Source: an uncultured Bacteroidales bacterium (lineage in GTDB: Bacteria > Bacteroidota > Bacteroidia > Bacteroidales > Muribaculaceae). From it: a DNA stretch of 64,000 nucleotides. Position numbers and translations under genes: made by a program. Below the pieces are notes generated by a model. The model did not search any database and was not told the DNA's origin. It saw only the letters and a program-made list of their open reading frames with translations. Shown piece by piece: positions 2,841 through 52,247 of this stretch (position 1 is the first letter of the stretch; each line of letters opens with the position of its first letter). The stretch covers positions 124,001-188,000 of the forward strand of contig CACZNH010000006.1 in assembly GCA_902782465.1 (NCBI GenBank), in the 5' to 3' direction.

Positions 2841-4304
2841 ATGAGACAACCAAATATGAGCCAACATCCACTTCCACATCCTGCCGTCGCGATGATACCC
2901 GTCGTGGTGCTCATCGGCCTGTTGGGCATTGTCATTGCCCTGTTTGGCAGCGACGCACTGAATGGAGGCAGCCAAATTGCCCTGCTGCTGGGCCTTGCCG
3001 TGTGCGTCATGATTTCGATGACGGTGTATCACGTGCCATGGAAGACGTTTGAACAGCAGATGTGCAAGACCATCGGCGACGTGTCAGTCACGCTGCTCAT
3101 CCTGTTGACGGTGGGCATGCTGTCAGGATCCTGGATGATCAGCGGCGTGGTGCCCACGCTCATCTATTACGGTATCCAAGTGCTCTCGCCGCAGTTCTTC
3201 CTTGTGAGTGCCTGCTTCATTTGTGCTCTAGTCTCACTGCTGTCTGGCAGTTCCTGGACAACGATTGCCACCATTGGCGTGGCCCTGCTGGGCATCGGCA
3301 ATGCATTGGGCGTCTCAGAAGCATGGACGGCGGGCGCCATCATCTCGGGAGCTTACTTCGGCGACAAGATGTCGCCCCTGAGCGACACGACCATCCTGGC
3401 CTCGTCGTCGGTGCGTGTGGATATCTTTGCCCACATCCGCTACATGATGTTCACGACCATGCCGTCAATCATCATTTCGTTAATCATCTTTCTCATTGCC
3501 GGATTTGGGAACGGCAGCGAAGGGGCAATGCAGGTGGAACAGTACACCCAGGGGTTGAACTCGACTTTCAACATCTCGGCATGGACCTTACTGGTGCCCG
3601 TCATCACCGGTGTACTGATTGCCAAGAAGGTGCCATCACTGATTGTGCTTTTTGCCTCGTCGATTCTGGCAGGTATCACAGCCTTGATACTCCAACCGCA
3701 CATCTTGACGCAGATTGCCGGCGATGCCTCTTTGACGACGGCCGCTGCGCTGGCCAAGGGGTTGGCTATCACTTTTTCGGGTGCCACGGCCATTGAAACG
3801 GGATTTGAGTCGCTTAATGACCTGGTTTCGACGGGTGGCATGGCGGGGATGCTGAACACCATCTGGCTGATTCTCTGTGCCATGTGCTTTGGCGCCGCAA
3901 TGGTTGCCAGCCGCATGATTGAGAGCATCACCAGCGTCATCATCAGGTTTGTGCGCACCCGCACCACCCTTGTCAGCTCTACCGTCGGCACAGGCATTTT
4001 CCTGAATCTCACAACGGGCGACCAATTCATCAGCATCGTCCTCACCGCCGACATGTTCCGCGAGGTATTTGACAAGGAGGGCTACGAGGCACGCTTGCTG
4101 AGCCGCACCACCGAGGATGCCGCCACGGTGACGTCGGTACTCATCCCGTGGAACACCTGCGGCATGACACAGGCCACGGTGCTGGGTGTCCCCACCCTCA
4201 CTTATCTGCCCTACTGCTTCTTTAACATTATCAGTCCACTGATGTCCATCGCCGTCGCCGCAACAGGGTGGAAAATCGTTCGAAGAGTGAGGAGTGAGGA
4301 GTGA
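2841..4304 (+). CDS. nhaC: NhaC-family Na+/H+ antiporter
   Basis: 487 residues and about 11-12 hydrophobic segments, typical of NhaC antiporters, which exchange cytoplasmic Na+ for external protons at the inner membrane. Family hallmarks seen include the SGSSWTTIATIG and GAYFGDKMSPLSDTT segments in the first half and NLTTGDQFISIVL and WNTCGMTQATVLG in the second. The ATG at 2841 is chosen because a TAnnTTTG box sits 20 bases upstream; the ATG at 2856 is an alternative. The final residues RRVRSEE and the stop are encoded by a heptamer repeat array, so the C-terminus may differ from relatives. It faces dnaA convergently. Confidence 0.9.
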   Translation: MRQPNMSQHPLPHPAVAMIPVVVLIGLLGIVIALFGSDALNGGSQIALLLGLAVCVMISMTVYHVPWKTFEQQMCKTIGDVSVTLLILLTVGMLSGSWMISGVVPTLIYYGIQVLSPQFFLVSACFICALVSLLSGSSWTTIATIGVALLGIGNALGVSEAWTAGAIISGAYFGDKMSPLSDTTILASSSVRVDIFAHIRYMMFTTMPSIIISLIIFLIAGFGNGSEGAMQVEQYTQGLNSTFNISAWTLLVPVITGVLIAKKVPSLIVLFASSILAGITALILQPHILTQIAGDASLTTAAALAKGLAITFSGATAIETGFESLNDLVSTGGMAGMLNTIWLILCAMCFGAAMVASRMIESITSVIIRFVRTRTTLVSSTVGTGIFLNLTTGDQFISIVLTADMFREVFDKEGYEARLLSRTTEDAATVTSVLIPWNTCGMTQATVLGVPTLTYLPYCFFNIISPLMSIAVAATGWKIVRRVRSEE

Positions 4305-4312
4305 GGAGTGTA
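4285..4312. repeat. Heptamer array at the 3' end of nhaC
   Basis: Three perfect copies of GAGTGAG followed by GAGTGTA, period exactly 7. The array contains the last four codons and the TGA stop (4302-4304) of nhaC. It belongs to the set of 7-base-period arrays found at other gene ends in this window. Confidence 0.8.
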
Positions 4313-4362
4313 GGGCCTCGCCTTGGCGTGGCCGTATGGATGGATATAGGAGTGAAAAATAA

Positions 4363-4394
4363 AGTGTCTAGAGTGGTTAGCCATTCTAGACACT
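4363..4394. terminator. Bidirectional terminator between nhaC and dnaA
   Basis: AGTGTCTAGA (4363-4372) pairs perfectly with TCTAGACACT (4385-4394) around a 12-base loop. The plus strand continues TGTTTTAT and the minus strand continues TTTATTTTT, so the hairpin can end both converging transcripts. Confidence 0.8.
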
Positions 4395-4426
4395 TGTTTT
4401 ATGAATGCTTAAAGTATGAAATCTCC

Positions 4427-5830
4427 TTACTGGGTGAGGCTGGCGGTAATCGCCGCTACCTCGCGCGAGAAGTCTTTCTCGATGGACATGCGCTGTTCAA
4501 TCTGCGTGCAGGCATGAAGAACAGTTGCATGCGTGCGGTCCAGCTTGGCGCCGATGCTGGTCGATGACATCTGGGCCTCTTTCTTGGCCAGATACATGAC
4601 GAGCTGACGGGCGTCGCTGATTTCACGCTTGCGTGATTTACCGTAAATCAGGTCGGTAGGCATGTTGTAGTAGTCGGCTACCGTCTCGGTAATGGATTCA
4701 AAAGTCACCTGCTTTGGCGTCACCTTAACAGTGTTGCCGATGACACTGCGTGCCAGGTCGATGGTGATGTCCTGTCCCAGCATCGTGGCATGGGCAAGCA
4801 GGGCCACCATGACGCCCTCGAGCTCACGCACACTCTCTGTTACATTAGTAGCGATGAAGTCGAGCACATCGTCGGTGATACTGAGGCCGTCTTGAGCCGC
4901 CTTCATAGCAAGGAAGTTACGGCGCAGCTCGAAATCGGGCTTCTCCAACTCAACCGTCATACCCCACTTGAATCGGGAAATGAGCCTGGGTTCCATACCG
5001 TCGAGGTCGCTCGGGCGGCAGTCGCTGGACATCACCAGCTGGCGCTGGTGCTGGTGCAGGTGGTTGAAGATGTGGAAGAATGTATTCTGTGTGGCCGTCT
5101 TGCCCGCAAGGAACTGGATGTCATCGAGCAAGAGTACGTCTATACTCTGGTAGAAATTAATGAAGTCGTTGACTTTCTTGTGAATCACAGCAGTGGTGTA
5201 CTGGCTCTCAAAGACTCTGGAGGATACATACAGCACTCTCATGCGCGGGTTGTTCTCCTTGAGTTTGATACCGATGGCCTGCAGCAGATGGGTCTTGCCC
5301 ACACCTGTCGTACCGAATACGAACAAGGGATTGTAGGTCTTCACCTCGGGGTGGTCGGCAATTGCCTGACCGATGCTCACAGCGAGCTTGTTGCTCATGC
5401 TGCTGCAATAGTTCTCGAAGGTGTATCGCGGGTTGAGCTGCGGGTCAATATCCTCGAGCGTGTCTTCACGCTCAAATGGGTTAGCCACACGCGGCTTGCG
5501 TATCTTGAGGTCGTGCTGGAGCTTTACGCTGGAGTGGTCCTCGGTCTGCTCAACGGCACTGGCGTCATCACCGCTCACCACATTATATTTATAAGTGAGC
5601 TTGACGTTATCGCCAAATACCTTCTTCATGGCGGCCGACAAGAGGGGCAGGTAGCGGCCCTCAATCTGCTCAACAAAGAACTGAGAGGGTACTCGAAGCG
5701 TCACACGGCTGTTTTCATGGTCATAGTCAACGGCAACAATGGGAGCGAACCAAGCATCAAACTGCTCGGCCGGCAAGTTGGCCTTGATGGCGTCAAGGCA
5801 ACGGTTCCACTGTTGTGCAACGTTATACAT
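4427..5830 (-). CDS. dnaA: Chromosomal replication initiator DnaA
   Basis: 467 residues, normal length. DnaA is an AAA+ ATPase that binds DnaA boxes and melts oriC. Domain I is the start (MYNVAQQWNRCL), a variable acidic linker lies around 85-130, the AAA+ core has Walker A GTTGVGKT (173-180) and Walker B LLLDDIQF near 235, and domain IV carries the box-reading helix-turn-helix with GAKLDRTHATVLHA near 430-445. dnaN is not adjacent, which is common in Bacteroidota. The start at 5830 is the family start. The 5' region is described separately; no clear -7 box was found there. Confidence 0.98.
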   Translation of the reverse strand: MYNVAQQWNRCLDAIKANLPAEQFDAWFAPIVAVDYDHENSRVTLRVPSQFFVEQIEGRYLPLLSAAMKKVFGDNVKLTYKYNVVSGDDASAVEQTEDHSSVKLQHDLKIRKPRVANPFEREDTLEDIDPQLNPRYTFENYCSSMSNKLAVSIGQAIADHPEVKTYNPLFVFGTTGVGKTHLLQAIGIKLKENNPRMRVLYVSSRVFESQYTTAVIHKKVNDFINFYQSIDVLLLDDIQFLAGKTATQNTFFHIFNHLHQHQRQLVMSSDCRPSDLDGMEPRLISRFKWGMTVELEKPDFELRRNFLAMKAAQDGLSITDDVLDFIATNVTESVRELEGVMVALLAHATMLGQDITIDLARSVIGNTVKVTPKQVTFESITETVADYYNMPTDLIYGKSRKREISDARQLVMYLAKKEAQMSSTSIGAKLDRTHATVLHACTQIEQRMSIEKDFSREVAAITASLTQ

Positions 5831-6249
5831 TCTATAAATAAGTCGTTTAGTTTTTAGTCATCAGCCGCCAGTCGACAGTATTCTCTAGTTATTCGACCCT
5901 AGTAGGTATTCCGCTAGCTTTGCTCTTGCTAAAAAGCTAATCGCTAACAGCTGATTCCTAAAATAATTCTTCTAGTAATGGATGTTTTTTCAGTGCTTTT
6001 TGCTGTACAAATTTCGGTCAATATTTTCTTATAAAAAAGTGTCGAAAAAATTTGGAAATCTCATTCTAATTGTAACGTTATTGAAAAACAACAGGTTACA
6101 CCATTATTGCACTTTTTTTACAAATTCTGCCTCCCCACTTTACCATTTAATCTAATTGTCAGCACTTTAGCGATATGTGAATATTTATCTATTCCATATG
6201 TCAAACTCGCAAATGGCTGTTATTGCAAGGGTTTGATTTTGCAAATCCC
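5831..6249. other. AT-rich region upstream of dnaA, no gene
   Basis: About 420 bases between the dnaA start and the terminator of the next minus-strand gene. It must hold the dnaA promoter, but I found no good TAnnTTTG on the minus strand (closest TAGCTTTT at 5939-5932). No convincing TTATCCACA-type DnaA box is visible either, so I do not call it an origin. Two weak 7-period arrays are present: AGTCATC-type units at 5856-5883 and GCTAATC-type units at 5936-5956. Confidence 0.5.
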
Positions 6250-6270
6250 GAAAACAATAAAAAGAAAAAA

Positions 6271-6303
6271 AATCTCTATTTGGAACGAGTCCAAATAGAG
6301 ATT
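6271..6303 (-). terminator. Rho-independent terminator of the MlaD-type gene
   Basis: A 14-base perfect stem, AATCTCTATTTGGA (6271-6284) with its complement at 6290-6303 and a 5-base loop. On the minus strand it is followed by TTTTTTTCTTTTTATT. It lies about 70 bases past the stop at 6377. Confidence 0.9.
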
Positions 6304-6376
6304 TTGACGTTTTCAAGAGGTGATTTTTTGTCTCAAAAATTGATGTGCATCTATATGATTTCAGGTTCATCATCAT

Positions 6377-7279
6377 TTAGAACACTTTCACGTTGATGTA
6401 CCTCTTGGGGTGAGCCTTGACATCGGTCAGCAACGAGTCGAGGCTGGCGATGGCATGGTTAGCGTTGTCATAGAGTTCACGGTCGCTCATCAGCTTGCCC
6501 AGAGTCGAGTTCTTGTCATTGAGCTGCTCACTGAGCGCCTGCAGATTGGCAAGCGTGGTGTTGACCTTGTTGAGGGTCTCGTCGAGGGGCAACTGCTTCA
6601 GATTCTCGGACAGGTCAGAGATGTTGCTCGACGCACCCGTCAGGTTGCTGGTGATACCGTTCACATTGTTCATCACACCGGGAACACTGCGGTTAAGACC
6701 GCTCATCAGCTGCGTGAGCTGCTGCGCGCTGGCCTGCAGCTGACGCGTGATGGCGTCCAGTCTCGTCAACGATGCTGAGAGGGCGGGGTCGGCAGTCAGC
6801 ATGTTGACATTGCTGACGATAGAATCCACCTTGGGAAGCATGCCGCTCACCACGGGCATGACGTTATCGGTTACATTATCCATAAGACTGGGGACATCGG
6901 TGGTGGGAATCATGCTACCCATGGGCAAGGGGGCACCACCGCCCAGATTGAGCACGAGCGATGTGCCACCGATGAGACCCGACACCATATTGATAGTACT
7001 GCCTGCGGGCACCTTCATCTCCTTGTTCAAGGCGAGCATGACGGAAATCTTGTTCTTCTCGTAGTCATATTTGATTTCCCTGACCTGACCCACCTGGAAG
7101 CCATTGACCGTGACGGGAGTTGCCTCCAACAGGCCGTCAGCGCTAGTCACTTCGGTGTAGTAATGGTTGGCAGGAGTAAACAGGTTGACTCCTTTCAGGT
7201 AATTGATACCCCAATAGAGCAGCGCGAGTCCCAACAGGACTGTAAGCGCTATTTTTACGTTTTTAGTGAAAAACTTCAT
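6377..7279 (-). CDS. MlaD/MCE-domain lipid-transport protein
   Basis: 300 residues from the ATG at 7279 (MKFFTKNVKIAL); an in-frame ATG at 7300 is an alternative. One N-terminal membrane helix is followed by an MCE domain with the motif GLLEATPVTVNGFQVGQV, then a long helical C-terminal part (about 140-300) rich in Leu, Asn and Ser. Family members form hexameric rings that move phospholipids between the inner and outer membranes together with MlaE/MlaF. The permease and ATPase genes are not directly visible; upstream is the divergent GH92 gene. It has its own promoter and a strong terminator, so it is probably monocistronic. Confidence 0.88.
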   Translation of the reverse strand: MKFFTKNVKIALTVLLGLALLYWGINYLKGVNLFTPANHYYTEVTSADGLLEATPVTVNGFQVGQVREIKYDYEKNKISVMLALNKEMKVPAGSTINMVSGLIGGTSLVLNLGGGAPLPMGSMIPTTDVPSLMDNVTDNVMPVVSGMLPKVDSIVSNVNMLTADPALSASLTRLDAITRQLQASAQQLTQLMSGLNRSVPGVMNNVNGITSNLTGASSNISDLSENLKQLPLDETLNKVNTTLANLQALSEQLNDKNSTLGKLMSDRELYDNANHAIASLDSLLTDVKAHPKRYINVKVF

Positions 7280-9837: not shown

Positions 9838-11757
9838 ATGACAACAAAACCATATATAAAAGAACACTGCCCGCTGCTGGCGCAAATCGACACGCCTGCA
9901 GACCTTAGGAAACTGGACATCGACCAGTTGCCACAGGTGTGCGACGAGCTGCGGCAATACATGATACACGAGCTGTCGAGTAATCCCGGACACTTCGCTT
10001 CGAGCATGGGTGCCGTGGAAATCATTGTGGCTCTGCACTACGTTTTCAACACGCCCGATGACCGTCTGGTGTGGGACGTGGGACATCAAGCATACGCCCA
10101 CAAGATATTGACGGGCCGTCGCGACCAGTTTGACGACAACCGCAAGCTGGATGGCCTAAGCGGTTTCCCCAACCCCGCCGAGAGCGAATATGACACCTTC
10201 ACGGCAGGCCATGCCTCCAACTCCATCTCGGCAGCCCTGGGCATGGCGATTGCCGCTGAACTGCAGGACAACAAGGACCGCAAAGTGGTCGCCGTCATCG
10301 GTGACGCAAGCATCAGCGGCGGCTTGGCGTTTGAAGGCATCAACAACGCCACCACCAACCCCAACAACCTGATTATCGTCCTCAACGACAACGATATGGC
10401 AATTGACGCCAATGTGGGAGCCTTGAGCCACTACATGAGCGACCTGCACACGTCGCGCCGCTACAACAAGCTGCGCTACAAGACCTACCAGTTCCTGCGT
10501 CGCCACAAGGTCATCAACGACAACCGCAAGGGCTTGATTATGCGTTTCAGCAATGCGTTGAAGTCGCTCTTCTCGGGTCAGCAGAACATCTTCGAGGGCC
10601 TGAATATCCGCTACTTCGGGCTGTATGACGGCCATGACGTGAAACGTCTGGTGAAGGTGTTCCGAGAGATTAAGGACATGACCGGTCCCAAGCTGGTGCA
10701 TGTGCGTACCGTCAAGGGCAAGGGCTTTGCCGCTGCCGAGGCTGACCCCGCCGTATGGCATGCCCCGGGCAAGTTTGACGAGGAGACCGGTGAACGCGCC
10801 AAGGGCGGCAAGGGCGGTCCCATCAAGTATCAGGACGTTTTCGGCAAGACCCTTGTGGAACTTGCCGAGAAGAACGATAAGATTGTGGGCATCACTGCAG
10901 CCATGCCCAGCGGCACCTCGATGTCGCTGATGCTGGCAGCTATGCCCCGGCGCGCCTTTGACGTGGGCATCAGCGAGGGCCACGCCGTGACCTTTGCCGG
11001 CGGCCTTGCCAAGGACGGTATGCGCCCCTACTGCGCCATCTACAGCACCTTCCTGCAGCGCGGCTACGACTCCATCATCCATGACGTTGCCATCCAGGGA
11101 CTGCCGGTGACCTTCTGCATCGACCGCGGCGGCATCGTCGGTGAGGACGGTGTGACACATCACGGCCTGTTTGACCTCGCCTACCTGCGTTGCATCCCCG
11201 GCATGACGGTGGCCTCGCCGCTCAACGAGCACGACCTGCGCAACCTCATGTACACCGCCCAAATGGACGACATGGGCCCCTTTGCCATCCGCTATCCGCG
11301 CGGCAAGGGCGTCATTGCCGACTGGCAAAACGAAATGAAGGTTTTGCCCGTGGGCAAGGGACGACGGCTGACCGAGGGCGAAGGCGTGGCAGTGCTGAGC
11401 ATCGGCCACATCGGTAACGAGGTCATCGACGTGGTGAACCGCCTGGCCGAACGCGGCATCAAGGTGGGCCACTACGACATGATTTACCTCAAGCCCATCG
11501 ATGAGCAGATTCTTGAGGAAGCCACCACCCGATACCACAGCATCATCACCATCGAGGACGGTACCGTGGTGGGCGGCCTGGGCTCGGCAGTCGCCGAGTG
11601 GATGTCGCGCCACGACAAGACCAACCGCCTGAGGATGCTGGGTGTGCAGGACGAGTTCGTGCATCAGGGCACTGTGGCCGAGCTTTATGAGCGGTGCGGC
11701 ATGGATGCCCAGTCGCTGGAAAAGACAATACTTCTGGAGTTAGGAGTTAGGGGTTAA
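9838..11757 (+). CDS. dxs: 1-deoxy-D-xylulose-5-phosphate synthase
   Basis: 639 residues from ATG 9838. DXS condenses pyruvate and glyceraldehyde-3-phosphate with thiamine diphosphate, the first step of the MEP isoprenoid pathway, in the cytosol. Seen: SSNPGHFASSMG, DVGHQAYAHKILTGR, the TPP/Mg motif GDASISGGLAFEG starting near residue 155, and the central and C-terminal transketolase-like domains with FCIDRGGIVGEDG. The frame could extend further upstream, but that part overlaps the small membrane-protein gene in another frame. The last residues LELGVRG and the stop lie in a heptamer array. dxs-trkA-trkH is a recurring order in this phylum. Confidence 0.97.
   Translation: MTTKPYIKEHCPLLAQIDTPADLRKLDIDQLPQVCDELRQYMIHELSSNPGHFASSMGAVEIIVALHYVFNTPDDRLVWDVGHQAYAHKILTGRRDQFDDNRKLDGLSGFPNPAESEYDTFTAGHASNSISAALGMAIAAELQDNKDRKVVAVIGDASISGGLAFEGINNATTNPNNLIIVLNDNDMAIDANVGALSHYMSDLHTSRRYNKLRYKTYQFLRRHKVINDNRKGLIMRFSNALKSLFSGQQNIFEGLNIRYFGLYDGHDVKRLVKVFREIKDMTGPKLVHVRTVKGKGFAAAEADPAVWHAPGKFDEETGERAKGGKGGPIKYQDVFGKTLVELAEKNDKIVGITAAMPSGTSMSLMLAAMPRRAFDVGISEGHAVTFAGGLAKDGMRPYCAIYSTFLQRGYDSIIHDVAIQGLPVTFCIDRGGIVGEDGVTHHGLFDLAYLRCIPGMTVASPLNEHDLRNLMYTAQMDDMGPFAIRYPRGKGVIADWQNEMKVLPVGKGRRLTEGEGVAVLSIGHIGNEVIDVVNRLAERGIKVGHYDMIYLKPIDEQILEEATTRYHSIITIEDGTVVGGLGSAVAEWMSRHDKTNRLRMLGVQDEFVHQGTVAELYERCGMDAQSLEKTILLELGVRG
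11736..11756. repeat. Heptamer array at the 3' end of dxs
   Basis: GGAGTTA, GGAGTTA, GGGGTTA: three units of exactly 7 bases. They encode most of the last six residues, and the dxs TAA stop begins in the last unit. The sequence resembles the units after gcvH. Confidence 0.7.
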
Positions 11758-23568: not shown

Positions 23569-26500
23569 ATGAAGAAATTATTATCTTTACTTCTAACATT
23601 GACATTGGCAACATCAGCCTTTGCCGAATGTGCTTTCTACATGGATGACTTTGTGGTGAATAGGGACCAAATCGGAAACAATACCGAGATTACCCTTCCC
23701 ATCAAAGCCACGTTCTCCGGCCGTCTGAACGGTTGGGAACTGAAATTTGTGTATCCGGAGCACCTGATTCCTACTTACATTGAGCCAGGAGCTGACATGA
23801 CGGTAACCTACTACAATGCCCGTGGTAAAGAGCAGACGCTGGATGCCCCGCTTTCTGGTGCAAGAGAGCCTTGGGATCACCTCCTGTGTGCAATTGCCAC
23901 CCAGGGTTTCTATCAGGATCCCAACGGTGAAGACCCCACCGCATGGGTATCCTATGGTGCCGTGAAATGGGAAGGTGGAGTCTATGAGGAGATGCTTCTG
24001 CTCAGCTTCATTGTCGAGGAAGGCTTTGAAGGTGGCGACATCATCATCAAGACCTGCTGTGGTTCTGGCCTTGACCCGCGTGAAGGCGGTTCAATCTATA
24101 ATAACGGTGACCACAAGCAGTGGTTTGAAAGAACTGTTCACGCTAGCCTGCAGGCCATCACCGAGGCTCCCGAAATCACCTATACCATGGATGAGGACGA
24201 GGCCATCGTCACCGCTACCGGTAATGGCGAGGTTCTGCTCTATGTGAACGGCGAACTCGTTACCAACCCCTACACCATCGCTCGTGGTGCCGAGGATGTT
24301 GAGTACACCATCACTGCTACCGCTCAGGGCGAGGGTGAGGTTATCAGCGAACCCGCTGAGCTCAAGCTGCTCGTTCCCGCCAAGCCCGAGGCCGTCTATG
24401 GCTTTGGCTTGAGGAAAGTTTGGTCAGTGGATTTGCCCGCTCAGATGCCTGAGGGTCTTGTTACCAATGATATGCGTCAGGGCTTCGGTATGAACGGCAA
24501 GTTCTACGTTAACAGCAAGAAGTCTGTTCTTGACTCTGCAACGATGACCTACACTACCGTTCCCACCGTCTATGTATTTGACCAGACCGGTCGTGTTGAG
24601 AAGACCTATCCCGGCGGTCTGAACTGCGGTATCACCCGCGACGAAGCCGGCAACCTGGTAATCAGCGACGCCCAGTTCCCCAACAACTGGAACGAGACCG
24701 CTACTATCAAGGTTATCAACCCCGAGACCGACGTTACTAAGGTTTACACCGTTCCCACTGAATGTGGTATCGCTGGCCGCTGCGACTTCATTGGCTTCGC
24801 TAAGGGCGACCTCATGCAGGACGGTCAACTCTATCTCGTTAGCAACACCTCTGGCACCGGTGTTTCGATTATGACTATCACCGACGGTGAGGTAAACACC
24901 GACGAGAGCTATCTTGCTAACTGCGACGGCGTGACCCCCACGACCAACACGGTTGTCAACTATTACAAGAATCTGGCTGGCGAGGATGCTATGCTGTATG
25001 TAACCCGCAACGCAGCTCCCGTCATCATGCAATTTGATGGCAGCGACCTGGTTGGTCAAGCCATCACTCTGCCCAACAAGGGTGCTTGCAACGGTGTATT
25101 CCCCTTCATTTATGACGGTAAGGAGTATTTCCTCTATCCTACTCTGCCCAACTATCTTGACGGCTTTGCAATTGCCGAGGCTGGTGTAAAGGATCCCTAT
25201 GTCACAAACGATCCCAACTACAAAACCAACCCCAACGGCATCCAAGCCAACTGGCTCAATGCCGAGGTTGACGATGAAGGCGTAACCATCTATCAGTATG
25301 TTCCCGGTGGACATGTAGCTGTTTACCGCCTTGGTGACGGCGAGCGCACTCAGATGCCTGTAATTACCTACGAGACCAATGACGAGGCCGTTGTTATCAC
25401 TGCTACTGGCAGCGCCAACGTGAAGATGTATGTTGACGGTGTTCTGGTTGACAATCCCTACACCATCGCTCGTGGCGAGGAGGATGTTACCGTTACCGTT
25501 ACCGCTACCGCTCAGAAAGACGGCAAGATCATCAGCGAGACCGCTGAGGAGCAGATTCTGATTCCCGCTCTGCCCGCTAAGACTGCAATGCCCGTTATCA
25601 CCTTCAACACCACCGACGAGGCTGTTGAAATCACCGCTACCGGTGATGGTGAGGTTCTGCTCTATGTCAACGGTGAGTTGGTTGACAATCCTTACACCAT
25701 CGCTCGTGGCGAAGAGGATGTAACCATTTCCATTGTAGCTACCGCTCAGGAAGAGGGCAAGCGCATCAGCGATCCTGCTGAGCTCGAGCTCGTAATTCCC
25801 AAATACATCCCGCAGACCGAGATGCCTGTCATCACCTTCAACACCACCGACGATGCCGTTATCATCACTGCCGAGGGTGAGGGTGAGGTTCTGCTCTACG
25901 TGAACGGTGAACTCGTTGAGAATCCCTACACCATCATGCGTGGTGAGGAGGATGTAACCGTTACCGTTACCGCCACCGCTCAGGGTGAGGGCAAGCGCAT
26001 CAGCGATGTTGCTACTCAGGAGCTGGTAATTCCCGCTCTGCCTGCTAAGACCGAGATGCCCGTCATCACGTTCGAGACCCTCGACGACGCTGTTGTCATC
26101 ACCGCTACCGGTGAGGGCGAGGTTCTGCTCTATGTGAACGGCGAACTCGTTGAGAATCCCTACACCATCGCTCGTGGTGAGGAGGATGTAACCGTTACCA
26201 TTGTAGCTACCGCTCAGGAAGAGGGCAAGCGCATCAGCGATGCTGCCGAGATGACTCTCGTCATCCCCGCTTATCAGGTTACCGCTACTCCCACTATCAG
26301 TGTTGAGGTTACCGATGACTATGTTATCATTACCGCTACCGGTGATGGCGACGTTCAGCTCTATGTAAACGGTGAGCCCGTTGAGAATCCTTACACCATC
26401 GTTCGCGGTGAGGAGGATGTTGACATCGAGGTTTATGCTACCGCTAAGGAGGATGGCAAGATCATGAGCACCACCGAGGTTACCGTGGTTACCATTCCCA

Positions 26501-26658
26501 AGCACAGTGGCATCGACGAGCTGATTGGCAACAAGACCGTTGCTAACGTTCGCTACTTCAACATGGCTGGTCAGGAGATGACCGAGGTGAACGGTGCTAC
26601 CATCATCGTTACCACCTACACTGACGGCACCCGCAGCACTGTTAAGGTGATCAAGTAA
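23569..26658 (+). CDS. Large secreted repeat protein with C-terminal tail
   Basis: 1029 residues. Signal peptide to about 19; an N-terminal beta-rich domain (about 20-195) resembling cohesin-like carrier domains; one repeat unit (200-275); a unique region (about 276-595) with blade-like strands such as VYVFDQTGRVEKTYPGG that could be a small beta-propeller; then five more units of about 78 residues; then the same tail as the 209-residue protein upstream (GIDELIGNKTVANVRYFNM to STVKVIK). Each unit has the core LLYVNGELVENPYTI, then RGEEDVTVT and TATAQ. The architecture suggests a cell-surface or exported scaffold or adhesin. Codon use is biased to GTT/GCT/ACC as in the upstream gene. Ligand unknown. 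Confidence 0.85.
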   Translation: MKKLLSLLLTLTLATSAFAECAFYMDDFVVNRDQIGNNTEITLPIKATFSGRLNGWELKFVYPEHLIPTYIEPGADMTVTYYNARGKEQTLDAPLSGAREPWDHLLCAIATQGFYQDPNGEDPTAWVSYGAVKWEGGVYEEMLLLSFIVEEGFEGGDIIIKTCCGSGLDPREGGSIYNNGDHKQWFERTVHASLQAITEAPEITYTMDEDEAIVTATGNGEVLLYVNGELVTNPYTIARGAEDVEYTITATAQGEGEVISEPAELKLLVPAKPEAVYGFGLRKVWSVDLPAQMPEGLVTNDMRQGFGMNGKFYVNSKKSVLDSATMTYTTVPTVYVFDQTGRVEKTYPGGLNCGITRDEAGNLVISDAQFPNNWNETATIKVINPETDVTKVYTVPTECGIAGRCDFIGFAKGDLMQDGQLYLVSNTSGTGVSIMTITDGEVNTDESYLANCDGVTPTTNTVVNYYKNLAGEDAMLYVTRNAAPVIMQFDGSDLVGQAITLPNKGACNGVFPFIYDGKEYFLYPTLPNYLDGFAIAEAGVKDPYVTNDPNYKTNPNGIQANWLNAEVDDEGVTIYQYVPGGHVAVYRLGDGERTQMPVITYETNDEAVVITATGSANVKMYVDGVLVDNPYTIARGEEDVTVTVTATAQKDGKIISETAEEQILIPALPAKTAMPVITFNTTDEAVEITATGDGEVLLYVNGELVDNPYTIARGEEDVTISIVATAQEEGKRISDPAELELVIPKYIPQTEMPVITFNTTDDAVIITAEGEGEVLLYVNGELVENPYTIMRGEEDVTVTVTATAQGEGKRISDVATQELVIPALPAKTEMPVITFETLDDAVVITATGEGEVLLYVNGELVENPYTIARGEEDVTVTIVATAQEEGKRISDAAEMTLVIPAYQVTATPTISVEVTDDYVIITATGDGDVQLYVNGEPVENPYTIVRGEEDVDIEVYATAKEDGKIMSTTEVTVVTIPKHSGIDELIGNKTVANVRYFNMAGQEMTEVNGATIIVTTYTDGTRSTVKVIK
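24166..26500 (+). repeat. 234-bp intragenic repeats (six units)
   Basis: Unit 1 lies at about 24166-24393, separate from the rest. Units 2-5 start at 25354, 25588, 25822 and 26056, exactly 234 bases (78 codons) apart; the sixth starts at 26287, 231 bases after the fifth. DNA identity between central units is high enough for recombination, especially around the LYVNGELVENPYTI core. Confidence 0.92.
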
Positions 26659-33842: not shown

Positions 33843-33917
33843 TGGAGGTCGCTAGCGGACTCGAACCGCTGTGCCCGGTTTTGCAGACCGGTGACTAAAC
33901 CACTCATCCAAGCGACC
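33843..33917 (-). tRNA. tRNA-Cys (anticodon GCA)
   Basis: Minus strand. Acceptor strands GGTCGCT and AGCGACC pair perfectly, the anticodon stem CCGGT/ACCGG encloses CTGCAAA with anticodon GCA, the T arm contains GGTTCGAGTCC, the discriminator base is U, and CCA is encoded (33843-33845). About 75 bases with CCA. A -7 box (33944-33937) and a T-run terminator flank it. No integrase or repeated attachment half is visible around it. Confidence 0.96.
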
Positions 33918-36252: not shown

Positions 36253-36280
36253 AGAAGTTATATATTAGGTGTTAGGAGTT
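36253..36280. repeat. Heptamer array between mazG and topB
   Basis: AGAAGTT, ATATATT, AGGTGTT, AGGAGTT: four 7-base units, degenerate. The array lies in the 63-base gap 3' of mazG and 5' of topB (both minus strand). Confidence 0.6.
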
Positions 36281-37350: not shown

Positions 37351-38337
37351 ATGATGAAATACCTGAGTCTGCCTGACCACGCGACACGCATTCTTCCGTT
37401 CTATCTAGCAATGGAAGAGTTTGCTGCACGTATTATTGAAGAGGATGACATCTTCTTCATGTGGCAGGTGGATCCCACGGTCATCTTCGGAAGAAATCAG
37501 CTGATTGCCAACGAGGTGAACGTGGACTATTGTCGTGAGCACGGTATTGCGTTCTATCGTCGCCGCAGCGGTGGCGGCTGTGTGTATGCCGACCGCGACA
37601 ACATCATGTTCAGCTACATCACGCGTAGCGACGAGGTGCAGACGACTTTCACCCGTTACACCAGCGCTGTAGCTGATATGTTGCGCGGATTGGGGCTGAA
37701 CGCCAGCGCCAGCGACCGCAACGACGTGCACATCGACGGCCGCAAGGTGAGCGGTAACGCGTTCTATCACATCCCCGGGCGCAGCATCGTTCACGGCACC
37801 ATGCTGTTTGACACCAACATGGAGCACATGCTCAATGCCATCACGCCATCACGCGAGAAGCTGACGAGCAAGGGCGTGGAGTCGGTGCGCAGCCACATTA
37901 CCACATTGCGTGAGCACCTGGCGATGGATATCGAAGACTTCAAGCGCCATGTGCGCGAGACGCTGTGTGACGGCGAGATACAGCTCACTGCCGATGATGT
38001 TGCCGAGATTGAGCGCATCACGCAGGCCTACCTTGAGCCGTCATTCCTGTGGGGCAACGACCCGCAGTGCGAAGTCAAGCGTGGGGGTCGCATCGAGGGC
38101 GTGGGCAGCATCTACATCAATGTAGCGCTCAATCACGACACAATCCAGGACCTGCACCTGATGGGCGACTTCTTGCCGTTGTGCAACGATGTGGGCGAAA
38201 AGCTGCTCGACACGTTGCGAGGTGCGAAACTCGAAGCCAATGACCTGCACAAAGCCCTTGATGGCTGCGATGCGGGACAATGGATACTGAATTTAACAAA
38301 CGAACAATTAATAGAGCTTTTAGCAATTAGCCATTAG
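37351..38337 (+). CDS. lplA: Lipoate-protein ligase A
   Basis: 328 residues. The BPL/LPL catalytic domain has the RRRSGGGCVYAD segment and the conserved Lys in HIDGRKVSGNAFYHIPGR, followed by HGTMLFD; a C-terminal accessory domain completes the bacterial-type ligase. It activates lipoate with ATP and attaches it to a Lys of GcvH or an E2 protein. Placement just before gcvT-gcvH-gcvPA-gcvPB-lpd implies GcvH as the main target. The last residues LLAISH and the stop are written in a heptamer array. Start ATG 37351; ATG 37354 is equally possible. Confidence 0.94.
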   Translation: MMKYLSLPDHATRILPFYLAMEEFAARIIEEDDIFFMWQVDPTVIFGRNQLIANEVNVDYCREHGIAFYRRRSGGGCVYADRDNIMFSYITRSDEVQTTFTRYTSAVADMLRGLGLNASASDRNDVHIDGRKVSGNAFYHIPGRSIVHGTMLFDTNMEHMLNAITPSREKLTSKGVESVRSHITTLREHLAMDIEDFKRHVRETLCDGEIQLTADDVAEIERITQAYLEPSFLWGNDPQCEVKRGGRIEGVGSIYINVALNHDTIQDLHLMGDFLPLCNDVGEKLLDTLRGAKLEANDLHKALDGCDAGQWILNLTNEQLIELLAISH

Positions 38338-38354
38338 CTTTTAGCAATTAGAAT
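38320..38354. repeat. Heptamer array at the 3' end of lplA
   Basis: TTAGCAA, TTAGCCA, TTAGCTT, TTAGCAA, TTAGAAT: five units with a 7-base period. The lplA TAG stop (38335-38337) is inside the third unit. Confidence 0.8.
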
Positions 38355-39497: not shown

Positions 39498-39598
39498 TGC
39501 ACCTATAGAAGCTATAGATACAATAGATGCTATAGGTTTTTCTATTCATGATTTTTAAAAGCAAACAAAATATTAACTAATTAATTTTTTATAAAACA

Positions 39599-39982: not shown

Positions 39983-40017
39983 AGAGTTAGGAGTTAAAAG
40001 TTAGAAGTTAAGCATTA
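39983..40017. repeat. Heptamer array between gcvH and gcvPA
   Basis: AGAGTTA, GGAGTTA, AAAGTTA, GAAGTTA, AGCATTA: five 7-base units starting 4 bases after the gcvH stop. Confidence 0.8.
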
Positions 40018-42886: not shown

Positions 42887-42894
42887 TCAGCAAC
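42875..42894 (+). terminator. Hairpin spanning the gcvPB stop codon
   Basis: GTTGCTGA (42875-42882) pairs perfectly with TCAGCAAC (42887-42894); the 4-base loop contains the TAA stop. A weak TTTCCT follows. It may attenuate transcription into lpd or protect the upstream mRNA end. Confidence 0.5.
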
Positions 42895-42900
42895 TTTCCT

Positions 42901-42997
42901 GATTAGTGATTAGAGATGAGAGATTAGCGAGGTGACACCTCCAGCCAATCAACTAATCTCTAATCACTAATCTCTAATCGTTAATCACTAATCTTTT
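42901..42997. repeat. Inverted heptamer array between gcvPB and lpd
   Basis: Four plus-sense units (GATTAGT, GATTAGA, GATGAGA, GATTAGC, 42901-42928), a small palindrome GAGGTGACACCTC (42929-42941), then six complementary-sense units of the CTAATCT/CTAATCA type (about 42953-42997). The two arms are largely complementary and could form a stem of about 25-28 bases. The array ends 8 bases before the lpd ATG. Confidence 0.85.
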
Positions 42998-43004
42998 ATC
43001 TAGT

Positions 43005-44342: not shown

Positions 44343-44347
44343 CGAAT

Positions 44348-44418
44348 CAGTTGTCAGTTTTCAGTTGTCAGTCTTCAGCATCATCCGCATCCATCTGACA
44401 ACTGAAAACTGAAAACTT
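44348..44418. repeat. Inverted heptamer array between lpd and the YigZ gene
   Basis: Plus-sense CAGTTGT, CAGTTTT, CAGTTGT, CAGTCTT (44348-44375) and, after about 19 bases, complementary CTGACAA, CTGAAAA, CTGAAAA (44395-44415). The arms can pair over about 20 bases. The unit is the same as that overlapping the aguA end at 52.2 kb. Confidence 0.85.
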
Positions 44419-44429
44419 CACATTAGCCA

Positions 44430-48077: not shown

Positions 48078-49271
48078 ATGAAAAAGCTTATTCTCGCTGC
48101 AACCATCGCTATCGCAGGATGGCTTAACCTGCAAGCACAGTCGATGCCAACACCCGAAAGGTATAACGCATTTCTTGAGCAAGTCGCAAAACTGGAACAG
48201 ACGCATGCTGAATTCCTGATGACAGCGACAATGGAAACTCTCGCCAAAGACCCCAAAGGCTACCGCCAGATGATGGAACTCGCAGAACGCCGCTTCAGCG
48301 ATGCCGCCGACTCGTTGCACAACGAGGGCCTGTACATGGCAGTGCTCAAACATGCCACCGAGAAATTTGTGCTGAGTGGCAGCGAGAAAGAAAAACAGCG
48401 TCTGTTGCTGGAAGGCGCCAAGAAAAACATGATTGGCACTGTCGCAGCCGACTTTGACTACGTCACCCCCAACGACAAGACCGTTCACCGTTTGAGTGAA
48501 CTCAATGCCGATTATATCCTCGTTTATTTCAACAACCCCGACTGTGAGTCGTGCGAGAGAGTCAAGGAGCGCCTCGCCACCAACGAGACCATCAACCGGA
48601 TGGTGAAGGATAAACAACTCGTTGTGCTCGGCATCTATCCCTATAACGACGGCAAACTGTGGAAAAAGACCAAATATCCGTCGATGATGATTAACGGCTG
48701 GAACCAGAGCGGACAGATTGAATATGCCGAGTTATATGACCTGCCCACCCTGCCCTGTTTCTATCTGCTCGACAAGAGCCACACGGTGCTCATGAAGAAC
48801 GAGGGCAGCCTCAACAAGGTGGAAGCTGCGTTGAACAACCCCGAAACATTGCAAACCGCCGGTCCGATGCCTGACCTCGATGAAATCAAGACCATCAAGC
48901 CCAGTAAGCCTCAGGCACCTACAAAAATTATCGCATCGCCCACCGAAAAGAACGTCATAATAAGCGAGCTGATTTTCAAGTACATTCTTGAAAACAAGAG
49001 CAAAGAGTTGTATGATAATCTTGCCGATAACATCAAGTCGCAGACCACTGTCGAAACGTTCGATAACATCCTGACCCAGCTGGAGAGCCAGGCTGGCAAA
49101 TACATTGACCACGGGCCCTGGGAGAAACAGCAGATCCAAGGCATGGATGCTTATATGTCGGTCATGAACTTTGAAAAACAACCGTTGAGGCTGATGATTG
49201 TTTATGGCAAGGACGGTAAGATTGCAGGTTTCAACTTCTCACCTATACAGCCAGTTCCTCAAAAAGACTAA
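48078..49271 (+). CDS. Secreted thioredoxin-like protein with DUF5106 and DUF3887-like domains
   Basis: 397 residues. Signal peptide ending near LQAQS; a helical DUF5106-like segment (about 22-140); a thioredoxin-like fold (about 140-255) with the redox motif CESC in FNNPDCESCERVK and the cis-Pro LPTLPCFY; a Pro-rich linker (about 262-290); and a C-terminal domain (about 300-397) like DUF3887, with the pattern KELYDNL then GKIAGFNFSP. It is probably periplasmic or outer-membrane facing and may reduce or isomerise disulfides; the active motif is seen, the target is not. The stop overlaps the convergent TPR gene by 4 bases. Confidence 0.82.
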   Translation: MKKLILAATIAIAGWLNLQAQSMPTPERYNAFLEQVAKLEQTHAEFLMTATMETLAKDPKGYRQMMELAERRFSDAADSLHNEGLYMAVLKHATEKFVLSGSEKEKQRLLLEGAKKNMIGTVAADFDYVTPNDKTVHRLSELNADYILVYFNNPDCESCERVKERLATNETINRMVKDKQLVVLGIYPYNDGKLWKKTKYPSMMINGWNQSGQIEYAELYDLPTLPCFYLLDKSHTVLMKNEGSLNKVEAALNNPETLQTAGPMPDLDEIKTIKPSKPQAPTKIIASPTEKNVIISELIFKYILENKSKELYDNLADNIKSQTTVETFDNILTQLESQAGKYIDHGPWEKQQIQGMDAYMSVMNFEKQPLRLMIVYGKDGKIAGFNFSPIQPVPQKD

Positions 49272-51343
49272 CGGGTCATACGTTTCAGGACATTGTAACT
49301 CGGGAGGATACCTAATTCTCCCGCTTTGCTCAGGTCGTTGATGCCCGATGTCTTGTTACCCAATCTCAAATACATCAAGCCACGGTTGTAATAGGCTTCA
49401 GCCAGGTCGGGCTTCAGTTCGATTGCTGTCGTGTAGCAGCTGATGGCGCTGGTATAGTCCCCTTGCAGCATATAGACATTGCCCTTATTGAAATGGGCAT
49501 ATACGTTCTTGGGCGACAGCTTGATCGCCTGGTCCAGGTCTTTCCTCACCAGGTCCAGCATCATCTCATCCATGTGCTGGCGAGCCTTGGCATCAAGTTC
49601 ATTGCCGCTCGCGCTATTCTTGTCACGGGCCTGTGCCATGCGGTACTGCATGTAATGCGCATCGGCACGCAACAAGAACGCCAACATGAAGTTCGGACTC
49701 AAGACAATCGCCGAATCGGCATCCTCGATGGCTGACTCAGGATTCTTGACCAACAGATAATCCAGTCCACGGGCAAAAAGGTCGATGCTGCGCGGCTTGG
49801 CGGAGCCCAACAACGAATTATAATACTCGATGTCATTGAAATGGCGTTGAATCTCCTCGGCCTGCAACTGCGGGACACCAGGAATGATAGTCAATGTTCC
49901 AGGCAGCAATTTCAAGTCGTTGATATCCCCCAATTCACGGATGTAGTGTGTCTTGCCGTTCAGTTTATTGTCCTGAGCGTAGTAGGACAACGAGAACATG
50001 GGCATCGGCTCCACCTCGATGTTGTCGTTCTGGACGTGACCACGTTGACGGTTAGCATACTCGGGCTTCACCGGGTCATTGTCGTTCACGGTGAGCAGGG
50101 TGTTGAAGCGGTTGATGATTTCCTCGGCGGTTTCGGGCTCGTCAACGCCACCCTCGAGGGCGCGTTGCTCAGCCTTCTTGATGGCTGCCGTGGCCTCAAT
50201 CTCGGCAGGATTAAAAGTCGAGACGTGTGTCTTGTTGCGGCGGAAAATCGACATGGCCTTCTCCATGTCGGCCTCGCTGCCGCGGATGTCACCCATGCGG
50301 CGTTTGGCCTCGCCACGCGCCATGTATCCCGCCTCAAACTCCGGGTATTTCTTCAAGATGGCCGTAAAGTCATTGACAGCATTACGGAATTGCCCTGTGC
50401 GCATGTGCAACAGCGCGCGGTTGTAGAGCGCCATGAAGTTGGAGGGGTTGCTCTTGAGCACGAAATCAAAGTCACTGATGGCCTTGTTGTTGTCACCGAC
50501 CTCGGCACGCAACAGTCCGCGGTTGAAGTGAGCCTCCTGACTGGCAGGGTCCAAACCGATGGCATAGTCATAGTCGGCCATCGCACCGAAATAGTCGTCG
50601 AGGTTGTACTTCATGTAGGCACGGTTGATGAAAAATCCTGAATAGTGCGGTTCCAACATGATGGCACTGTCCATATCGGCAAGGGCGCGCTCAAAGTCAT
50701 GATGGCTGCGTGTGTAAATTTCGGATCGCATGACATAGGCACTCGCATTCTTTTTACTCAGCGCTATGCCACGGTTCAGGTTATCAAGAGCTGCGGTCGT
50801 ATCCTTGCGGGCCAGGTTCATCTGAGCCAGGCCGATGTAGGCGCGGTCGTTGCGACGGTCAAGTTGCATCAGGCGGTCGAACGATTCCTGAGCCTCGTCA
50901 TAGTTCTTAAGAGCCGTCTGGCATACGGCACGGTTGAGCAGCATATTCTTGTCCTCGGGCATGAGCTTGAGGCCCTCGTTATAATCCTCGACAGCGCCCT
51001 TGAAGTTTCCCATATTTTGACGTGAAACGCCACGCACCTGATAGGCATCGACGATGAACGGGTTACGCTCAATCGCCATGCCCGCGTCCTGTTCAGCGCC
51101 GCGATAGTCCTCCAGGCTGATCTTTGCCACCGAGCGATAGAAATAGGGCTCAGCCAAGAACGGCTTAGCCTTAATCGCCTGGTTAAAATACTGGATGGCC
51201 AGGATATAGTCCTCAAAGTACAAGGCATTACGCCCGATGGTCACCACCTGGTCAGTGTTGATTTGGGCAAAACACCCCATCGAGGTACAAAACACAGCCA
51301 ATGCCAGCACCATGCGTCGATATATCGCACTAAATCTCATCAT
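49268..51343 (-). CDS. Secreted TPR-repeat protein
   Basis: 691 residues from the ATG pair at 51338-51343 (a longer frame reaches 51412 but overlaps aguB). Signal peptide ending near GCFAQ; then about ten or more tetratricopeptide units with repeated DYRGAEQDAG-, AVEDYNEGL- and YYNRGLMYLRLG-type helices; a middle linker (about 380-480) with acidic and Pro-rich stretches. It is likely a periplasmic protein-protein scaffold. It starts 2 bases after the aguB stop, so it is co-transcribed with aguA-aguB although no metabolic link is evident. Confidence 0.88.
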   Translation of the reverse strand: MMRFSAIYRRMVLALAVFCTSMGCFAQINTDQVVTIGRNALYFEDYILAIQYFNQAIKAKPFLAEPYFYRSVAKISLEDYRGAEQDAGMAIERNPFIVDAYQVRGVSRQNMGNFKGAVEDYNEGLKLMPEDKNMLLNRAVCQTALKNYDEAQESFDRLMQLDRRNDRAYIGLAQMNLARKDTTAALDNLNRGIALSKKNASAYVMRSEIYTRSHHDFERALADMDSAIMLEPHYSGFFINRAYMKYNLDDYFGAMADYDYAIGLDPASQEAHFNRGLLRAEVGDNNKAISDFDFVLKSNPSNFMALYNRALLHMRTGQFRNAVNDFTAILKKYPEFEAGYMARGEAKRRMGDIRGSEADMEKAMSIFRRNKTHVSTFNPAEIEATAAIKKAEQRALEGGVDEPETAEEIINRFNTLLTVNDNDPVKPEYANRQRGHVQNDNIEVEPMPMFSLSYYAQDNKLNGKTHYIRELGDINDLKLLPGTLTIIPGVPQLQAEEIQRHFNDIEYYNSLLGSAKPRSIDLFARGLDYLLVKNPESAIEDADSAIVLSPNFMLAFLLRADAHYMQYRMAQARDKNSASGNELDAKARQHMDEMMLDLVRKDLDQAIKLSPKNVYAHFNKGNVYMLQGDYTSAISCYTTAIELKPDLAEAYYNRGLMYLRLGNKTSGINDLSKAGELGILPSYNVLKRMTR

Positions 51344-51345
51344 TG

Positions 51346-52221
51346 TCAATCCAGGAAGCGCTGGTTGAGGTCGGCATAGTGGTCGATGCGGCGGTCGCGC
51401 AGGAAGGGCCACCAGCGGCGTACCTGCTCGCTGCGCTGCATGTCGATGTCGATGACCTGCAGGTCCTCGGCATCGTTGGGGGCACGGTAAATGAGTTCGC
51501 CTTGGGGGCCGGCGACGAAGCTGCTGCCCCAGAACTGGATGCCGCGAGTCTGTCCCGAGGGGTCAGGCTCGTGCCCTACCCTGTTGACGGTGATGACGGG
51601 CAGGCCGTTGGCAACGGCATGACCGCGCTGCACGGTGGTCCATGCCTCGCGCTGGCGTTCCTGTTCGTCGGGGGTGTCGCTGCTCTCGTAGCCGATGGCC
51701 GTGGGATAAATCAGCATTTGTGCCCCGCGCATCGCCATAAGGCGTGCGCCCTCGGGGTACCACTGGTCCCAGCACACCATCACGCCAAGGCGTCCCAGCG
51801 AGGTGTCGATAGGAATAAAACCCTGGTCACCCGGGGTGAAATAGAATTTCTCGTAATAGGCGGGGTCGTCGGGGATGTGCATCTTGCGGTACTGGCCTGC
51901 CACGCTGCCGTCGGTGTCATAGACCACTGCGGTGTTGTGGTAGAGACCCGTGGCGCGTTTCTCGAACATCGAGGTAACGAGTACGATGCCGCACTCGCGG
52001 GCCACGGCGGCATACTCTGCAGTCTCGCTGCCGGGGATTTCCACGGCGAGGTCGAAGTTGTCCACGCTCTCCACCTGGCAGAAGTAGAGCGAGTCGTGCA
52101 GCTCTGGCAGGACGACGAGTTGCGCGCCCATGGCTGCGAGCTGCTTGATTTTATTGATGAGCGACTGGCGGTTGCCCTTGACGTCGCTGGTGTTGCGTTG
52201 TTGTATGATACCGATTTTCAT
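51346..52221 (-). CDS. aguB: N-carbamoylputrescine amidase
   Basis: 291 residues of the nitrilase superfamily with the catalytic triad Glu40 (VVLPE), Lys113 (YRKMHIPDD) and Cys150 (VMVCWDQWYPE). It hydrolyses N-carbamoylputrescine to putrescine, carbon dioxide and ammonia. The agmatine deiminase that makes its substrate is the preceding gene, 15 bases upstream, which supports the specific name over a generic nitrilase. Confidence 0.95.
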   Translation of the reverse strand: MKIGIIQQRNTSDVKGNRQSLINKIKQLAAMGAQLVVLPELHDSLYFCQVESVDNFDLAVEIPGSETAEYAAVARECGIVLVTSMFEKRATGLYHNTAVVYDTDGSVAGQYRKMHIPDDPAYYEKFYFTPGDQGFIPIDTSLGRLGVMVCWDQWYPEGARLMAMRGAQMLIYPTAIGYESSDTPDEQERQREAWTTVQRGHAVANGLPVITVNRVGHEPDPSGQTRGIQFWGSSFVAGPQGELIYRAPNDAEDLQVIDIDMQRSEQVRRWWPFLRDRRIDHYADLNQRFLD

Positions 52222-52247
52222 TTCAGTTTTCAGTTTTCAGTTTTCAG
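52220..52247. repeat. Heptamer array between aguA and aguB
   Basis: On the plus strand ATTTCAG then three perfect TTTTCAG units, period 7. It covers the aguA stop, the last codons of aguA and the aguB ribosome-entry region up to the ATG. The unit matches that after lpd. Confidence 0.85.

Follow-up and report, generated by a model that had tools for sequence, protein, structure and literature searches.

Why do short arrays of heptamers recur between the genes of a Bacteroidales genome, and what are they? The question is raised by a stretch of 64,000 nucleotides (nt) from an uncultured Muribaculaceae bacterium (assembly GCA_902782465.1; the window, bases 124001-188000 of contig C6 in a genome of 3.13 Mb, 45 contigs and 53% G+C). 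An original prediction, made from the letters of the window, placed degenerate tandem arrays with a strict period of 7 at ten sites, nearly always just 3' of a gene. We found that the 7-base repeats between genes of this genome are real, and that about half of the arrays examined are visibly one arm of small hairpin-forming repeats.

We analyzed the window together with 400 kb of the same genome in 20 stretches (the own-genome sample; 464 kb in all, 319 called genes), in which the intergenic search space comprised 259 segments and 70.4 kb. Ten of these stretches, from C2 and C3, were chosen after GGAGTTA repeats had already been seen on those contigs, and the other ten, from C1, without prior sight of repeats. 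Genes were called with a simple codon-score script that may misplace starts by tens of bases. Relatives were species of one genus (36 in one search, 60 in another) and then other families of the same order. Further loci came from named genomes: 118 stretches holding CTAAx5 among the matches listed, with 129 seed arrays (the listed loci). Their record titles name Bacteroidota, Cyanobacteria, planctomycetes, clostridia, Verrucomicrobia, Acidobacteria, Patescibacteria and others; the stretches were picked for CTAA units, so the phyla are a sample only, and contigs of metagenome-assembled genomes are perhaps misbinned. Genomes carry G-handles (G000 is the window's own) and loci L-handles.

The period-7 score of each predicted site was compared with those of 300 dinucleotide shuffles of that site. 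Seven of the ten (4285, 11736, 38320, 39983, 42901, 44348 and 52220) beat all 300 shuffles and are also reported by Tandem Repeats Finder, while the remaining three (36253, 5856 and 5936) were matched by 6-7% of their own shuffles. The intergenic DNA of the own-genome sample held 64 period-7 runs, compared with 0.8 per shuffle, 0 runs of period 6 and 4 of period 8; periods 9, 10 and 11 gave 10, 5 and 7 runs. The excess was present in the C1 stretches alone (30 runs against 0.25 in shuffles) and in the window alone (5 intergenic runs against 0.06). These shuffle comparisons rule out chance or composition as the source of the arrays. Contrary to the original prediction, the period is not always 7: arrays of 9-mers (39503) and of 8-mers (55500) are present in the window, and periods 8-11 exceed their shuffles as well (4, 10, 5 and 7 runs against 0.5 to 0.9), so the repeat system is not purely heptameric. 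Coding DNA held only 4 period-7 runs in ~393 kb against the 64 in 70 kb of intergenic DNA, a bias that is partly forced for CTAA units because their runs put stops in every frame; for the same reason, the finding that none of the 129 seeds of the listed loci lies inside a called gene has little weight. The arrays are neither codon periodicity, being intergenic with a period that is no multiple of 3, nor clustered regularly interspaced short palindromic repeats (CRISPR), since their 7-nt units stand head to tail without spacers (judged from this anatomy rather than with a CRISPR finder).

The heptamers share the core that the original prediction had sensed as TTAG or CAGTT, which is best written CTRA/TYAG. 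Most units follow a 4+3 rule, CTRA followed by NNN, or TYAGNNN on the other strand. Of 71 merged arrays found by period alone, 55 have CTAA or CTGA cores in phase in two or more of their units. Across 218 pairs of neighbouring units, identity was 0.97, 1.00, 0.97 and 0.96 at C, T, R and A and 0.70, 0.72 and 0.85 at NNN, the high values at the core being partly by construction because the unit phase was set on it. The CTRA pattern is present in 211 of 395 Bacteroidota genomes. It is not the sole heptamer core, since a reversed control pattern (ARTC core) is frequent in some Bacteroidota and exceeds CTRA in places (G325, G455, G052). The GAGTGAG array at 4285 is among those that do not fit CTRA. 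Outside their seeds, the listed loci held 140 period-7 runs (period 6: 24; period 8: 14), and many of these further heptamers are not CTRA.

We found that about half of the own-genome arrays are paired, with one order of arms. In the own-genome sample, a TYAG pair lies no more than 150 nt upstream of 29 of the 56 CTRA arrays with at least 3 units; the partner was on the TYAG..CTRA side only in 28, on the other side only in none and on both sides in one. Shuffled intergenic DNA gave an upstream TYAG partner in 1 of 382 windows. The same order was seen in 351 kb of relatives (partner upstream in 3 of 17, downstream in 0) and at the listed loci, where it was upstream in 34 of 129 and downstream in 7, two of these having both (exclusive counts: 32 TYAG..CTRA only, 5 opposite only, 2 both). 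Some loci carry two arrays, so that these counts are not fully independent. Whether the type is TTAG or TCAG, the two arms of a pair tend to share it (p 0.003). In the window, two of the seven confirmed sites are clearly two-armed.

A 9-base core is found between the arms of many pairs. Of the 19 pairs in the own-genome sample, 8 have the exact 9-mer GGCATCCGC/GCGGATGCC in their loops, and 5 have a near copy with one or two changes, including window 44347-44417. The core occurs 16 times in the intergenic DNA of the sample, which is 15% of the total, and 13 times within genes. Across the whole genome, the pattern of GCGGATGCC and, at most 8 nt further on, two CTRR units gave 74 matches and the complementary GGCATCCGC pattern 51 (50 distinct cores), with 0 for both reversed-pattern controls; the two counts overlap, as two-armed elements are counted by both patterns. 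A same-genus survey detected the core plus array in 29 of 61 genomes, with up to 74 matches in one, mainly in the species nearest to the window's genome at the gcv operon, and the reversed-pattern controls gave 3 matches in all, in G073 and G080. Among 33 array-bearing core elements of the own genome, 30 are two-armed, the 33 being those of the sample and the first 30 GGCATCCGC-pattern loci, which were fetched for having a right arm. The period of 7, the 4+3 grammar, the fixed arm order and the linkage of core and array are direct observations. In other phyla, too, similar loops are repeated on one and the same contig (L121, L125, L128), and these are read as putative other cores. A literature search on the letters of the core returned no related title among the matches listed. 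At the outer end of arrays whose inner end is the GGCATCCGC core there is often GCTCGC/GCGAGC, which stands beside GGCATCCGC at L313, L320, L322, L325, L328 and others and may be another module.

With a little better than even confidence, we take these repeats to be dispersed, hairpin-forming intergenic elements with slippage-prone heptamer arms that change by 7-nt steps, and so a structured form of the heptamer repeats already known. Many arrays would be the arms of elements of ~70-170 bp with the plan (TYAGNNN)n - centre - (NNNCTRA)m, and in the window's clade the 9-mer GGCATCCGC would be the centre of many of them. Single arrays would be elements that lost or never gained one arm. Whole units would spread by a copying process, either transposition or ectopic conversion, after which their arms would grow, shrink and turn over by replication slippage.

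Several observations weigh against this reading. About half of the CTRA arrays have no visible partner, which lowers our confidence in the reading as a whole. No core is recognisable in 6 of the 19 pairs, including window 42900-42993 and 5847-5961, and no array in the window has an exact core next to it. Just 9 of the 16 intergenic cores in the 464-kb sample adjoin a CTRR/YYAG array, 8 of them on both sides. By the same rule, and with own copies removed, 13 of 45 array-bearing cores at the relatives' loci are two-armed; at least four of the one-armed loci (L285, L287, L298, L314) have an arm of another heptamer type opposite. The arm order is not universal, as three of the nine places inspected in G376 are reversed (CTAA..TTAG) and two are in the usual order. 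The variable NNN bases of paired arms match no better than expected by chance (0.63 against 0.56, p 0.08; by subfamily, 0.55 against 0.63 and 0.47 against 0.43). The two TTAG/CTAA core elements that were folded did no better than shuffles (z -1.6 and -1.0). Inspection by eye of five compared sites revealed no target-site duplication, and no mobilising enzyme was identified when a parent transposon was sought among Y1 transposases. The two tests of NNN matching also led us to reject the view that the arms are exact inverted duplicates held by base pairing: with NNN unmatched, the arms are not simple inverted copies, their pairing is not tightly kept, and we claim no selection for perfect pairing. 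The reversed pairs of G376 lie at L354, L355 and L357, and two of them have a 6-nt loop, unlike those of the window's clade.

Orthologous sites show how the elements differ between species. At L046:2460-2640, six species have the core and two arms in three arm combinations: TTAGGCN / CTAAAGC in the own genome, TTAGACN / CTAGGGA in G078, and AACAGTN on the left with CTAGGGA on the right in G023, G024, G072 and G075. Seven species share an array-free spacer there. At L043:2285-2370, the own element sits where G007 has a gap of ~4 nt. The ~80-bp TCAG/CTGA unit of L046 has matches of 83-94% on several contigs each in seven genomes (G000, G031, G032, G035, G036, G076 and G078). In the gcvH-gcvP1 spacer, 9 of 17 loci have a heptamer array, and 5 of these 9 spacers have a length of 6 mod 7 (55, 62, 76, 83 and 83); those of G036 and G035 differ by 14 nt. 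Similar units within a genome, orthologous presence and absence, and lengths 7 nt apart are thus likewise observed directly.

Lengths 7 nt apart are also what plain replication slippage would give, with heptamers as a preferred slip length of the polymerase that arise anywhere they are tolerated, and no element behind them. Heptamers have reportedly been named a preferred slip length, by Mrazek et al. in 2007 as relayed by MacGregor and by Rehm, both in 2015. Slippage fits the wide and patchy spread of the pattern (the 211 of 395 Bacteroidota genomes, and many phyla among the listed loci), the many single arrays, and the 140 non-seed period-7 runs, many of them not CTRA. However, it predicts no single arm order, no 9-mer kept between arms and no similar 80-bp units on several contigs. 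Slippage explains the change in arm length; as an account of the whole we consider it rather unlikely. Less likely again is a separate class of dispersed element of which only a tiny centre (GGCATCCGC here, others in other lineages) is inherited, while a sequence-specific process keeps re-synthesising the heptamer arms on both sides. CTRANNN would then run away from the centre on each 3' strand, with four of its seven bases dictated and three free. If that were true, one enzymatic process common to many phyla, and not passive slippage, would lie behind the grammar and arm order that recur in them.

The spread of whole units could be ascribed to a Y1 (RAYT) transposase moving REPIN-like elements, as these too are short palindromic intergenic units present at many places. 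The idea was prompted by a broken Y1 (IS200-like) gene between TTAG and CTAA arms at G000:C13:111362-111702 (L222 1302-2108). Genus-wide counts disfavour it: over 61 genomes, Y1 matches and core-array matches are uncorrelated (rho 0.06, p 0.62), and core-array matches number 18 in G076 (83% complete) and 8 in G081 (91% complete), neither of which has a Y1 match. Moreover, 28 of 33 Y1 loci, with up to 1.5 kb per side, have no run of period 7, 8 or 9 (among the other five, L221 and L222 are the same place), and the conserved part of the elements is the centre, not the ends. We therefore give Y1 mobilisation very little credence. The position of the broken Y1 element of C13 looks like that of an insertion into a heptamer element's loop. 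A dispersed element is favoured because slippage fails on the arm order, the core and the similar units, and because RAYTs do not track the elements.

We analyzed the placement of arrays around genes in the own-genome sample. The neighbours were co-directional genes for 56 of 69 arrays and divergent genes for 5, making arrays scarce in divergent spacers, which account for 15.8 of 57.4 kb. In tandem intergenic regions, 30 of 54 arrays begin within 20 nt past a stop and 21 of 54 finish within 20 nt ahead of a start, where random placement would give 24.6 in either case; the median distance was 11 nt from the stop and 35.5 nt from the start. Arrays are thus often near stops, as the original prediction had it, but they are near starts as well, with no special 3' placement. 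They do have a polarity. On the strand that reads away from the nearest gene boundary, 44 of 54 arrays carry TYAG (23:7 at stops, 21:3 at starts). At the listed loci, an independent set, TTAG reads outward in 54 of the 63 arrays that lie no more than 50 nt from a called gene boundary and in just 25 of 50 farther away, with 16 of the 129 arrays having no called neighbour gene. This outward polarity would follow from an array being one arm of an inverted pair in fixed order.

An array of C plus a stop codon every 7 nt also places stops in three frames, which could itself be the purpose of the repeats. A stop codon is formed after CT in 261 of 265 units (AA 179, GA 73, AG 9), largely by construction since the phase was chosen on these cores, and four window arrays overlap a called gene end. 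Such a purpose leaves the arm order, the core and the hairpins unexplained; CTGG units occur in relatives, and GGGAATC repeats are, by inspection, stop-free on either strand. As a cause it is not supported, and we regard it as highly improbable. By the called gene ends, a stop codon lies within or at the edge of the array at 38320-38354, 11736-11756, 4285-4310 and 52221-52249.

The TCAG/CTGA and TTAG/CTAA subfamilies were found to differ in folding and orientation. Four TCAG/CTGA elements fold strongly (z -4.1, -5.2, -8.5 and -8.7), and the TCAG/CTGA core runs in sense to its tandem neighbour genes at 16 of 17 own sites and at 8 of 10 relative sites after removal of three own copies (11:2 before). 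The TTAG/CTAA subfamily has no orientation bias (4:6). Judged from the predicted folds, the TCAG/CTGA subfamily would form a strong intercistronic hairpin in read-through transcripts, and we leave open that an RNA role may keep it between operon genes.

At the gcvP2-lpd spacer, folding beats shuffles at 15 of 15 loci, the own included (z -3.3 to -6.9), 4 of the 15 folded spacers including coding sequence; the gcvP2 gene end was misjudged in four loci of this gcv-operon comparison. The fold is kept while the sequence switches among 7-mer, 8-mer and 9-mer types. The GATTAGT hairpin is found in G000, G024, G078, G081 and G082, whose genes there are 86-93% identical, and is nearly unchanged across the five, apart from a longer right arm in G078. 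Instead of it, G016, G023 and G075 have 9-mer hairpins (AAGACAAGA; L055, L059, L061), and G007, G018, G035, G036 and G067 have 8-mer hairpins (CGCTAAGT; L057, L058, L063, L069, L071). These results suggest that RNA hairpins may be selected between cistrons for processing, stability or attenuation and repeatedly reinvented, heptamers being an easy way to build stems. The sense bias and strong folds of the TCAG/CTGA elements and the scarcity of arrays between divergent genes point the same way. However, the gcvP2-lpd spacer is only 10 nt in a further locus (L075), the gcvT-gcvH and gcvH-gcvP1 spacers often have no hairpin or any array, the NNN bases are not matched between arms, and the TTAG/CTAA core elements are unbiased in orientation, with weak folds in the two examined. 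We consider RNA selection a possible but less than probable origin. The CGCTAAG/CGCAAAG type is seen again near cores in several relatives, as well as at window 55500.

The repeat features of the window are collected in Table 1. No Rfam family matches the arrays; at gathering score, the only Rfam matches in the window are RNase P RNA (60876-61239) and a tRNA (33846-33917), both on the minus strand, and the sub-threshold matches at 44352-44414 are to microRNA models. The window also has 4.3 tandem copies of a 234-bp unit at 25429-26420, inside the open reading frame 23641-26658, which encodes a repeat-rich protein.

Table 1 Heptamer arrays and related repeats of the window.
Feature	Position	Strand	Details	RNA fold
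Two-armed element, lpd / UPF0029 gene spacer	44347..44417	+	Left arm TCAGTTG-type, 44347-44378; right arm CTGAAAA-type, 44395-44417; loop with core-like CATCCGC (7 of 9 core bases)	44343-44429: -32.3 kcal/mol, z -8.45
Two-armed element, gcvP2 / lpd spacer	42900..42993	+	Left arm GATTAGT, right arm CTAATCA; inner hairpin GAGGTGACACCTC; without GGCATCCGC core	42887-43004: z -5.64
GGAGTTA-type array, 4 nt past gcvH	39983..40017	+	Right part degenerate (CAACTGTATACTGATTAA)	z -0.34, not unusual
TTAGCAA array, single arm	38320..38354	+	Overlaps end of lipoate ligase gene (called end 38337)	
CTGAAAA array (TTTTCAG on +), single arm	52221..52249	-	Between two - genes; overlaps called stop of 52237-53283 and abuts called start of 51346-52221	
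GGAGTTA array, single arm	11736..11756	+	Overlaps 3' end of dxs (ends 11757)	
GAGTGAG array	4285..4310	+	Overlaps 3' end of Na+/H+ antiporter gene (ends 4304); not CTRA	
Weak period-7 stretch	36253..36280	+	Same as shuffles	
Weak inverted pair TTAGTTT..CTAATCG	5847..5961	+	65-nt loop; each half alone within shuffles; adjoins gene 4427-5830 (dnaA by the original prediction's naming only)	
Exact core GGCATCCGC without heptamer array	55478..55486	+	8-mer repeat (CGCAAAGG type) to the right	
Period-9 array CTATAGATG, gcvT / gcvH spacer	39503..39535	+		

Bacterial heptamer repeats have been on record for decades, and according to the reports consulted neither their origin nor their role is agreed. 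The 4+3 grammar, an arm order seen across phyla and the kept centre of one clade make them a defined object, whose gain, loss, arm growth and effect on transcripts each become measurable; if the arms are actively made, a DNA-synthesis process stands behind them. In the literature searched, which covered few subscription journals, we found neither the core-anchored two-armed anatomy nor arm replacement around a kept core or arm order as a cross-phylum rule, and a literature query on palindromic repeats of rumen Bacteroidales likewise gave nothing. The elements here lack what defines REPINs and RAYTs, with no RAYT flanked by repeats and no two conserved ends. REPINs, as described in the part of PMC3116915 consulted, are likewise short, dispersed, hairpin-forming inverted pairs in extragenic DNA, but they have conserved ends, a variable spacer and a linked RAYT, whereas in our elements it is the centre that is conserved and the arms that differ. 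Compared with miniature inverted-repeat transposable elements, the arms here face each other in fixed order but are not exact inverted copies.

The likeness to the short tandemly repeated repetitive (STRR) sequences of cyanobacteria, already drawn in the original prediction, is upheld. In the sections consulted of PMC2670836, STRRs are 7-nt tandem intergenic units, some of them reported to form hairpins (upstream of hoxW; between hupS and hupL), and those sections describe neither a conserved centre nor a fixed order of arms nor a 4+3 grammar. In our elements, hairpin folding was found in the four TCAG/CTGA elements and at 42887-43004 and not in the gcvH array. Bacteroidetes were no blank in the literature on such repeats: the heptamer TAACTGA is in print for five of them, together with Beggiatoaceae and Cyanobacteria (MacGregor 2015, PMC4679880). 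Rotated, TAACTGA is CTGATAA, a CTRANNN unit. According to the portions seen of that report, in the Guaymas genome and Flexibacter it is mostly forward just before starts, and one Flexibacter set is reversed after a stop, both with the polarity found here; two Cyanothece strains differ by 7-nt indels, as do our spacers. Unlike here, it is one heptamer, related ones being rarely repeated in the Guaymas genome, with no core in those portions, and in Microcystis it breaks the polarity (relative to a start, 6 are forward and 8 reverse). It was interpreted there as a possible translational control site.

Two further systems are close. GGGNATC in Xanthomonas and Nostoc (Rehm 2015, PMC4692102) is described, in the text consulted, as lying mostly on the coding strand in the 50 bp past stops and on the non-coding strand in the 50 bp ahead of starts, outward as here, with paired repeats in Xanthomonas. 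It is another heptamer, a G-quadruplex former, with no core reported in that text, and most of its places are conserved between two Xanthomonas species, unlike ours. In Geobacter metallireducens, the class 3 sites are five tandem MTYCTGA units (PMC2700814, consulted in part), that is, CTGANNN as here, and are drawn looping on both strands; they comprise 16 sequences, 15 with heptamers, and were read, unlike our elements, as regulator binding sites. The repeats of this genome belong to a kind already known from STRRs, TAACTGA, GGGNATC and the Geobacter MTYCTGA sites, of which TAACTGA and MTYCTGA obey CTRANNN when rotated.

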